Shown here one piece after another: positions 30,819 to 31,699 of a DNA stretch of 64,000 nt. Source of the stretch: Rhodohalobacter mucosus. GTDB lineage: Bacteria; Bacteroidota; Rhodothermia; Balneolales; Balneolaceae. Position 1 is the stretch's first letter. Every line of letters starts with the position of its first letter. Location of the stretch: positions 186,001 to 250,000 of the forward strand of contig NZ_QGGB01000009.1 in NCBI RefSeq assembly GCF_003150675.1, in the 5' to 3' direction. Below the pieces are notes generated by a model. That model was not told the origin of the DNA, ran no database searches, and was given only the letters and a program-made list of their open reading frames with translations. Made by a program: the position numbers and the translations under genes.

Positions 30819-30902
30819 GCCCTGGTGGCGGAATTGGTAGACGCGCACGCTTGAGGGGCGTGTGGCCTAACGGCCGTGATGGTTCGACTCCATTCCAGGG
30901 CA
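30819..30902 (+). tRNA. tRNA-Leu (anticodon GAG)
   Basis: An 84-nt class II tRNA. The acceptor stem GCCCTGG pairs with CCAGGGC and A follows as discriminator; CCA is not encoded. The anticodon stem CACGC/GCGTG encloses TTGAGGG with GAG at 30853-30855. The long variable arm (TGGCC-TAA-CGGCC) and T arm GGTTCGACTCC are intact. A TATCTTTA box at 30793-30800 could be a Bacteroidota-type -7 promoter element. A strong terminator follows. Confidence 0.97.
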
Positions 30903-30907
30903 CATAC

Positions 30908-30944
30908 AAAAAAGCTCGTAATTGAAAAATTACGAGCTTTTTTT
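30908..30944 (+). terminator. rho-independent terminator of tRNA-Leu
   Basis: A perfect 16-bp stem AAAAAAGCTCGTAATT / AATTACGAGCTTTTTT with GAAA loop and trailing T run, 5 bp after the tRNA. An almost identical hairpin (31417-31452) lies in the second repeat copy. The GIY-YIG gene begins immediately past it. Confidence 0.92.
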
Positions 30945-30951
30945 ATTATGG

Positions 30952-31197
30952 ATGATGATCCATGTGTATGCCATTAAAAGTCTGAACCGGAACTACATCT
31001 ACGTTGGGATGACTGACGAGCTTGAGAGACGATTGGATCAGCATCAGAATGGGTATGAAAAGACTACACGCCCATATCGGCCATTTAAGCTTATTTACAC
31101 CGAATTACATCAAGGCCGGAAATCTGCAAGAGCGCGGGAAAAGTATTTGAAGTCTGCTGCTGGGAAACGATTTCTTCGTTCACTTATCAAAAATTAA
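30952..31197 (+). CDS. GIY-YIG nuclease family protein, copy 1
   Basis: An 81-residue single-domain GIY-YIG protein. The signature is present as HVYAIKSLNRNYIYVGMTDE (VYA for GIY, YVG for YIG), followed by the catalytic-Arg helix LERRLDQHQNGYEK and the metal-binding Glu in AREKYLKSAAGKR. These small UPF0213/YhbQ-like proteins are widespread in Bacteroidota, with unproven roles, possibly DNA repair or selfish spread. Two adjacent ATGs (30952, 30955) follow the tRNA terminator; no Shine-Dalgarno is seen. It is part of a duplicated unit. Confidence 0.85.
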   Translation: MMIHVYAIKSLNRNYIYVGMTDELERRLDQHQNGYEKTTRPYRPFKLIYTELHQGRKSARAREKYLKSAAGKRFLRSLIKN

Positions 31198-31201
31198 AAA
31201 C

Positions 31202-31671
31202 CGGCCGTGATGGTTCGACCCTGCCTGACTGCACGGAAGAATGGATTATTAAATTATATTGTGAGATGGTTGTTCATGCTTTTTCATAATTATGAACGGC
31301 AGGCAGGCCTGCCTGACTGCACGGAATACTCAGTCTGGTGTCATATTTTGATCAATGACTGAAATCAGGTTATTTCAAATTATGAACGGCAGGCAGGTCC
31401 ATTCCAGGGCACATACAAAAAGCTCGTAATTGAAAAATTACGAGCTTTTTTTATTATGGATGATGATTCATGTGTATGCCATTAAAAGTCTGAACCGGAA
31501 CTATATCTACGTTGGGATGACTGACGAGCTTGAGAGACGATTGGATCAGCATCAGAATGGGTATGAAAAGACTACACGCCCATATCGGCCATTTAAGCTT
31601 ATTTACACCGAATTACATCAAGGCCGGAAATCTGCAAGAGCGCAGGAAAAGTATTTGAAGTCTGCTGCCGG
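31202..31671. repeat. tandem duplication, copy 2, interrupted
   Basis: The second copy begins with the same 18-bp tRNA fragment (31202-31219). It is then interrupted by 178 bp of paired inverted-repeat elements and resumes with TCCATTCCAGGGCACATAC (31398) exactly where the first part stopped. Homology with copy 1 ends at 31671, inside the nuclease gene. Without the insert the two tRNA pieces would join seamlessly, so the insertion was later than the duplication and caused no target-site duplication. Confidence 0.9.
31220..31397. mobile_element. two adjoining ~90-bp inverted-repeat elements inserted in the tRNA remnant
   Basis: Unit 1 (31220-31307, 88 bp) and unit 2 (31308-31397, 90 bp) both begin CCTGCCTGACTGCACGGAA (last base or two vary) and end TTATGAACGGCAGGCAGG. 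The ends are inverted repeats of CCTGCCTG. The middles are unrelated. They encode nothing. They resemble miniature or REP-type elements; the insertion point splits the duplicated tRNA fragment between C and T of the T arm. Confidence 0.8.
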
Positions 31672-31699
31672 GTTTAACTATGATTGTCGTATTCAATAA
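31460..31699 (+). CDS. GIY-YIG nuclease family protein, copy 2 with altered C-terminus
   Basis: A 79-residue duplicate of the GIY-YIG protein at 30952. It is almost identical up to KYLKSAAG, including the catalytic Arg and Glu (one change, AREKY to AQEKY). The last ten residues (FNYDCRIQ and stop) are unrelated to copy 1, because homology ends at 31671. The missing part is a C-terminal helix, so folding may be affected. It follows a copy of the tRNA terminator rather than a tRNA gene, so its expression is uncertain. Probably a decaying duplicate. Confidence 0.7.
   Translation: MMIHVYAIKSLNRNYIYVGMTDELERRLDQHQNGYEKTTRPYRPFKLIYTELHQGRKSARAQEKYLKSAAGFNYDCRIQ

Follow-up and report, generated by a model that had tools for sequence, protein, structure and literature searches.

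A short GIY-YIG nuclease gene lies beside the tRNA-Leu(GAG) gene of Rhodohalobacter mucosus and is repeated in tandem together with a piece of that tRNA. A preliminary description of this DNA proposed that the arrangement is a minimal selfish module. Does the locus hold such a unit, and how would the host tRNA survive it? We analyzed the whole 64,000-nt stretch surrounding the locus (the window), in which tRNA-Leu(GAG) is the sole tRNA found by ARAGORN, along with homologous loci in R. mucosus, its relatives and more distant genomes.

Anatomy of the locus and its nuclease

The features of the locus are listed in Table 1. The tandem direct repeat includes the 3′ end of the tRNA, the terminator and the GIY-YIG ORF, and its copies are identical at 289 of 294 columns (30871–31164 versus 31202–31219 joined to 31398–31672). 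Thus, the tandem repeat of ~98% identity in the preliminary description is real, as is the completeness of the tRNA according to ARAGORN. However, the 331-nt offset of the proposed unit applies to no more than its initial 18 nt (30871 to 31202); beyond an insert of 178 nt, the offset is 509 and then 508 nt. This insert, at 31220–31397, splits the second tRNA piece in the T-loop, between tRNA nt 70 and 71. The preliminary description was silent on the insert, the most informative part of the locus, and on palindromes, isotype specificity and recurrent tandem copies.

Table 1. Features of the tRNA-Leu(GAG) locus, in window coordinates
Feature	Positions	Strand	Basis
Intact tRNA-Leu, anticodon GAG	30819..30903	+	ARAGORN; Rfam RF00005, 49.9 bits at the locus
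Terminator-like hairpin and T run 3′ of the intact tRNA	30908..30943	+	Inverted repeat I4, 16-nt arms, 100% complementary
GIY-YIG ORF copy 1, 81 aa (80 aa from the next ATG, 30955)	30952..31197	+	PF01541, E 3e-17; translation
Displaced tRNA-Leu, tRNA nt 53–70	31202..31219	+	18/18 identical to 30871–30888
Inserted unit 1, 88 nt, ends CCTGCCTG...CAGGCAGG	31220..31307	.	Repeats D6 and D7; unit alignment
Inserted unit 2, 90 nt, ends as unit 1, middle different	31308..31397	.	Repeats; unit alignment
Displaced tRNA-Leu resuming after the insert, tRNA nt 71–85	31398..31412	+	15/15 identical
Second terminator copy	31413..31454	+	Inverted repeat I2
GIY-YIG ORF copy 2, 79 aa, last 8 residues replaced	31460..31699	+	PF01541, E 1.4e-16; translation

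The 88-nt and 90-nt units of the insert have both ends in common (CCTGCCTGACTGCACGGAA ... AATTATGAACGGCAGGCAGG), and these end patterns gave 0 chance matches in 100 shuffles. A whole-genome search for the 88-nt unit returned the two window units only, with no third copy. The sequence GGCAGGCAGG occurs at 17 places in the R. mucosus genome, two of them within the window unit; it was rejected as a genome-wide repeat, as the 10 places inspected among the other 15 all look like ordinary sequence by eye.

Both window ORFs match Pfam PF01541, with 63.1 and 61 bits against a cut-off of 22.6. In copy 2, an R beside the conserved E is changed to Q and the last 8 residues are unrelated to those of copy 1; therefore, it is no faithful copy, and the earlier claim that the gene was duplicated as one unit stands for the family match of both ORFs but not for the C-terminus of the 79-residue second one. 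The catalytic Y, Y-x-G, R and E do not vary in alignments of 14 and of 39 sequences. Together with the PF01541 match and the fold, these residues place the protein in the GIY-YIG nuclease superfamily. The fold model, with a pLDDT of 96.6, is predicted to be Slx1/UPF0213-like: Foldseek ranked UPF0213 1zg2 closest (E 4e-4, the only match below E 0.001), followed by At-HIGLE and Slx1, with I-TevI lower. A protein of 80 residues is too small to hold a separate DNA-binding domain such as those of I-TevI and SegB, the latter being larger than this ~80-aa nuclease. The median dN/dS was 0.28 over 47 non-independent pairs, many near dS saturation, and the gene appears to be under purifying selection.

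The nuclease gene is free-standing, lying outside any intron and beside its presumed tRNA target. The ORF list contains no integrase-sized ORF between the tRNA copies, the GIY-YIG ORF being the one with a family match, and an integrase island was ruled out on this ground. Similarly, a group I intron was ruled out: ARAGORN reports the intact upstream tRNA as uninterrupted, and at Rfam gathering scores 49 loci gave only tRNA matches, with no group I intron or rRNA.

Linkage to tRNA genes and occupancy of sites

The R. mucosus genome contains 10 PF01541 matches, 8 of which have a short frame. Seven of these 8 genes lie in tRNA-associated units, at Leu (two tandem), Met, Ser, Met and Gly (two tandem), and the second copies at Leu and Gly are ~0.5 kb from the intact tRNA. 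The one short gene away from a tRNA encodes a 102-residue protein between repeats by eye (L006). The longer frames have 628 residues (L007, UvrC-like by size) and 287 residues (L009, near a contig end). At tRNA-Gly(GCC) of R. mucosus (L018 of G000, 1056–1500), 5′ parts of tRNA-Gly and palindromes are arrayed upstream of the intact tRNA, with the GIY units downstream.

We surveyed 20 relatives, 12 of them of the same genus, and counted 41 short GIY matches, leaving out four fragments with frames of 31–94 residues; L101, among those counted, probably represents a fragment of UvrC. A tRNA lies within 300 nt of 24 of the 41, on the same strand in all 24, and these tRNAs are Val, Leu, Asn, Asp, Met, Pro, Gly and Ser. 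Of 30 tRNA-linked loci (25 from relatives and 5 from R. mucosus), 24 contain an additional stretch matching the tRNA. On a tree of 48 proteins, built on few columns and with 14 open forks, the tRNA label changes 14 times against a shuffled mean of 31.6, and 0 of 200 shuffles were as low. As judged from this tree, the isotype is strongly clustered and related GIY lineages appear tied to other tRNA isotypes. At L086 (~1501–1710), a short GIY gene seemingly interrupts a Y1-type transposase gene by eye.

The tRNA-Leu(GAG) locus was seen in 16 of 21 genomes, and its occupancy is patchy. The gene is present in R. mucosus (G000) and in G018, and its start can be made out by eye where a contig of G020 ends. 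In G002 the GIY gene is decayed, while G008 has a displaced tRNA copy and a different palindrome, the gene being absent. No unit is present in 11 genomes (G003, G005, G006, G007, G009, G011, G013, G014, G015, G016 and G019), of which G011 and G014 have one 11-nt tRNA match each. Orthologous empty alleles thus exist; in particular, the sequence following the empty site of G006 resembles by eye the ORF 3′ of the window unit, which we take to be mscL. G018 belongs to another family, and it has an insert with identical ends at the identical T-loop position.

A search with the Leu-type alignment yielded 268 relatives; our analysis covered the 80 best. They come mostly from Bacteroidota, with Balneolota, Ignavibacteriota, Chlorobiota and several Patescibacteria; many are metagenome-assembled genomes, whose bins can contain foreign contigs, one record is labelled Rhodobacteraceae, and L142 is apparently the same contig as L065 of G018. 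ARAGORN found a tRNA at 72 of these best 80 loci, and in every one of the 72 the nearest is a same-strand tRNA-Leu. It lies within 300 nt of the gene in 70 of the 80 (36 downstream and 34 upstream of the gene), and the other 8 loci have tRNA-Leu-like pieces adjoining the gene by eye. A further tRNA match within 1.2 kb of the gene accompanies 69 of the 72, a few of only 11–16 nt. By eye, the layout is either intact tRNA, gene and broken 3′ part, or broken 5′ part, gene and intact tRNA.

The anticodons at Leu-type loci are CAA, TAA, CAG, GAG and TAG. On a weak tree of 81 rows, anticodon labels change 23 times against a shuffled mean of 26.5 (2 of 200 as low); they cluster so little that the gene looks as if it moves among isoacceptors yet stays in tRNA-Leu. 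Phylum labels change 19 times against 20.7 (4 of 200 as low). With 5 starred branches among 78 inner ones, the tree is poorly resolved, and transfer between phyla was dropped as a candidate conclusion for this reason.

Tandem copies recur. G149 has two arrays of 3 identical tandem units, and G072 has 8 GIY matches in a row. The latter array (L359, G072:C34:6000-10800) includes tRNA-like 3′ pieces and TCCGCC palindromes by eye, and ARAGORN finds no intact tRNA in its 4.8 kb. At L186, a seemingly full-length tRNA-Leu(CAA) with the 20-nt palindrome in the D-arm lies 3′ of the GIY gene by eye.

Across a phylum sample, strong GIY matches (E 1e-13) occur in 82 of 148 genomes. Our census of 88 loci was taken from the top of a longer match list: 28 starting loci and 60 more in list order, with tandem neighbours and loci already sampled left out. 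A tRNA lies within 300 nt of 21 of 106 GIY domain matches in the census, on the same strand in all 21 and from 12 isotypes; therefore, the tRNA association is only partial outside the Leu-type subfamily. Of the earlier suggestion that small GIY-YIG genes recur beside tRNA or rRNA genes, the tRNA half is borne out, in part only beyond the Leu-type subfamily, and the rRNA half is not supported, with only tRNA matches in the 49 loci. Among 62 census loci without a tRNA in 500 nt, 27 are flanked on both sides by a direct repeat of 16 nt or longer, versus 1 of 57 pairs of control windows, which did not span the gene and measured 350 rather than 400 nt. Many of the direct repeats around non-tRNA GIY genes are REP-like by eye. 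Short GIY genes away from tRNAs often sit between direct repeats, as at L006, L063, L069, L100, L107, L109 and census loci.

Palindromes in displaced tRNA copies and elsewhere

Among the best 80 of 268 Leu-type loci, CCTGCCTGCCGGCAGGCAGG (at most 5 mismatches) lies within 450 nt of the gene at 59, 21 of them exact. Its arm motif is present within that distance at 69 and one or the other at 75, leaving 5 Leu-type loci at which the palindrome is not recognisable (L158, L166, L167, L183 and L190). In the controls, each test gave 1 match in 215,147 nt of far flanks and 0 of 80 in shuffled near regions. The palindrome was not found at tRNA-Leu(GAG) in the 13 relatives that have no intact unit there (the 11 empty sites, G002 and G008).

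Of 97 raw insertion events in tRNA copies, 50 were kept, in 43 loci; they are 16–60 nt long with a palindrome-like start, and most discarded events contain tRNA sequence, reflecting tandem copies. Forty-nine of the 50 lie at loops or stem/loop boundaries, against a chance expectation of 39% stem-internal, and the remaining one is placed nominally within a stem, with an uncertainty of one base. Counted by 18 distinct flank contexts, because the events share ancestry, the bias has a p value of 0.0016; by 8 region types, the value is 0.11, or 0.03 without the ambiguous event. In G149, the whole anticodon arm of a tRNA-Pro is swapped for TCCCGACAGGTCGGGA by eye, in three identical tandem units. 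Comparison of orthologous loci does not give the plain slippage breakpoints named earlier as a counter-explanation: an empty site exists in G006, and displaced copies have palindromic inserts at tRNA loops.

Within R. mucosus, 13 of 39 distinct tRNA sequences have extra partial copies nearby (12–42 nt), for which another intact tRNA is not the source. Nuclease-free arrays are present at Asp (~101 nt), Ala(GGC) (175 nt), Leu(TAA) (109/168 nt), Arg (121 nt) and Glu (198 nt), and most of their units have a palindrome at the point where the tRNA resumes, by eye. In a relative (L106), array units open, by eye, with ~24 nt from the nuclease ORF joined to tRNA sequence, and because of this fusion nuclease-free arrays look like internal-deletion derivatives. 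The palindrome type CCCGANNNNTCGGG occurs at 63 places in the R. mucosus genome, versus 0 for the reversed control. The TCCCGA...TCGGGA palindrome was found in Asp, Gly, Pro and Asn tRNA copies in the genus; thus, palindrome type is not strictly isotype-specific there.

The exact Leu-type palindrome is also dispersed, with 35 sites in 12 of the 148 genomes of the phylum sample; a tRNA lies within 600 nt of 2 of the sites and a GIY gene within 600 nt of 1. All 12 palindrome-bearing genomes have a strong GIY match of some type, versus 70 of 136 others (Fisher p 6e-4; p 0.013 at genus level, species not being independent). A Leu-type protein match (E 1e-6) is present in 9 of the 12 and absent from 3; ten further genomes, picked for their lack of strong GIY matches, were set aside as an unfair control for this count. 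At L222, L234, L238–L241, L243 and L244 (G027 and G068), the exact 20-nt palindrome forms part of larger REP-like hairpins, seemingly placed close to the tips, by eye.

A proposed homing-type unit, rival readings and known systems

We consider the unit to be probably a minimal, free-standing and isotype-specific chromosomal mobile element of the homing type that leaves an intact tRNA. It would consist of the gene for an ~80-residue Slx1/UPF0213-like GIY-YIG nuclease and a piece of the host tRNA gene. Inserting inside one tRNA gene, the unit would itself supply the tRNA half that the insertion would destroy, so that an intact tRNA remains and the host survives; a gene downstream of the intact tRNA would carry the 3′ half and the terminator, and a gene upstream, the 5′ half. 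The nuclease would cut its own tRNA gene in an isotype-specific manner (for the Leu-type subfamily, tRNA-Leu of any isoacceptor), and the break would be repaired from a unit-bearing copy. Repeated cutting and out-of-register repair could then yield tandem copies, internal-deletion arrays and altered second nucleases such as that of the window. The leftover tRNA half beyond the nuclease gene has acquired palindromic hairpins at tRNA loop positions, which may shield the displaced copy from being cut or be traces of insertion directed by hairpins. The isotype tie, the regenerated tRNA, the recurrent tandem copies and the existence of empty and decayed alleles are consistent with homing through a nuclease that cuts the tRNA gene. 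The selfish module of the preliminary description is thereby much strengthened by the homologue survey, with the tRNA association and the empty sites in its favour and partial association outside the Leu-type subfamily as its limit. Neither of the two outcomes named beforehand as refuting it was observed.

Several observations sit uneasily with this homing reading. The intact tRNA adjoining the gene should be a target too, and no protecting feature was found there. The exact palindrome is mostly away from tRNAs (33 of 35 sites) and from GIY genes (34 of 35) within 600 nt. Moreover, 17 of the 41 matches in relatives and 67 of the 88 census loci have no tRNA within 300 nt. Also on this side are the shortness of the nuclease, with no space for a DNA-binding domain of its own, the 3 palindrome-bearing genomes that lack a Leu-type protein match, the 5 Leu-type loci at which the palindrome is not recognisable, the sharing of one palindrome type among tRNA isotypes in the genus, and the tRNA-copy-type palindromes close to two Y1 genes of R. 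mucosus. A wider reading, which we put forward only tentatively, would make short GIY-YIG nucleases and palindromes a distinct class of mobile DNA acting on hairpins. In that case, the Slx1-like nuclease would open extruded hairpins (tRNA-gene arms or REP hairpins), with palindromes inserted or swapped at loops. A single system, dispersed through Bacteroidota, related phyla and Patescibacteria, would then occupy two habitats, as tRNA-locked units and as GIY genes flanked by REP.

The palindromes might instead be mobile themselves, as REP-like elements that are moved by a Y1/RAYT transposase or some different enzyme and that lodge in hairpin loops, those of non-essential tRNA copies among them, with the GIY gene as a passenger. 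Their dispersal mostly without a GIY gene or tRNA near and the several exact copies at REP-like hairpin tips (by eye) agree with this, as do Y1 transposases in 12 of 15 genomes tested, with 7 in R. mucosus. Two of 6 inspected Y1 genes of R. mucosus have palindromes of the tRNA-copy type within ~0.6 kb, TCCGCC..GGCGGA (L364) and TCCCGA..TCGGGA (L365), so a part for Y1 transposases is possible, and in G097 (L366) one Leu-type palindrome lies ~70 nt from a Y1 gene. Nevertheless, three of the 6 (L367–L369) are flanked by other palindrome repeats and one (L370) by none, no Y1 gene lies within the unit, and no Y1 match (E 1e-5) was found in G151, in G018, which has the Leu unit, or in G027, which has the most palindromes (12). 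The far greater palindrome density beside Leu-type GIY genes than in the flanks and the strong GIY matches in every palindrome-bearing genome also argue against a mere passenger, and we regard this reading as rather unlikely.

Less likely still is a host function, in which a structure-specific repair nuclease is kept beside tRNA genes, for example for replication–transcription conflicts, and the tandem copies are passive. The Slx1-like fold and the purifying selection would suit it, whereas the patchy occupancy with empty, decayed and multiplied states, the isotype-specific lineages and the broken tRNA copies as usual companions (24 of 30 and 69 of 72) would not. We give slightly less credit, and little overall, to an RNA-level system in which the nuclease cuts tRNA-Leu RNA and the broken copies are decoys or regulators, in the manner of defence or toxin-like systems. 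Inserts at tRNA loops would be favoured by action on RNA too, and the arrangement is same-strand; however, broken copies often lack one tRNA half, palindromes occur in non-tRNA DNA too, and the nearest folds include branched-DNA nucleases. Finally, ordinary duplication at the tRNA by slippage or unequal exchange, with the nuclease a coincidental neighbour, would account for direct tandem repeats of 98% identity in the window but not for the identical layout in many unrelated genomes or the palindromic inserts at loops, and we hold it to be very improbable.

If the homing reading is true, the unit would be a very small autonomous selfish element, with its home set by tRNA isotype, that multiplies while the host tRNA is kept intact. 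The numerous partial copies of tRNAs in these genomes, and the palindrome common to Bacteroidota and Patescibacteria, could then be traced to it. It would also be an experimentally simple system of one 80-residue protein, one 20-nt palindrome and one tRNA gene for the study of how palindromic repeats and tandem amplification relate to homing.

Integrative elements and islands in tRNA genes restore the tRNA 3′ end and leave a displaced 3′ copy, and the tandem repeats of E. coli tyrT reportedly contain tandem copies of a tRNA 3′ end. The present unit differs from both in having no integrase, a size of ~300 nt, either tRNA half carried, and palindromes. The closest folds and sequences to the window protein are the UPF0213 and Slx1 nucleases (PDB 1zg2, 1ywl, 7cq3, 6seh and 7wme), which are not known to be tRNA-linked mobile units. 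REP elements with RAYT (Y1) likewise involve short dispersed palindromes, and non-tRNA GIY genes often lie between REP-like repeats; however, the unit has a GIY nuclease in place of a Y1 gene, and a Y1 match is absent from 2 of the 12 palindrome-bearing genomes. GIY-YIG homing endonucleases are also reported within group I introns of tRNA genes (PMC3984707); a homing-type endonuclease in tRNA genes would be common to both systems, but the unit has no intron.

In the open-access literature, we found neither such chromosomal units nor the palindrome described, and SegB of phages T4/T6 is the only close precedent. SegB is a free-standing GIY-YIG homing endonuclease that cuts within tRNA genes and drives recombination-dependent tandem amplification of a tRNA together with C-terminally truncated SegB (PMC13096335). 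The C-terminally altered ORF copy 2 of the window resembles this outcome by analogy. The passages covered here report no isotype preference of SegB and mention no palindromes in tRNA copies (PMC13096335). On that basis, both nucleases are of the GIY-YIG type, free-standing and located beside tRNA genes, whereas SegB is phage-borne and the R. mucosus unit is chromosomal, with an ~80-aa nuclease, isotype-locked lineages, a regenerated intact tRNA and palindromes.
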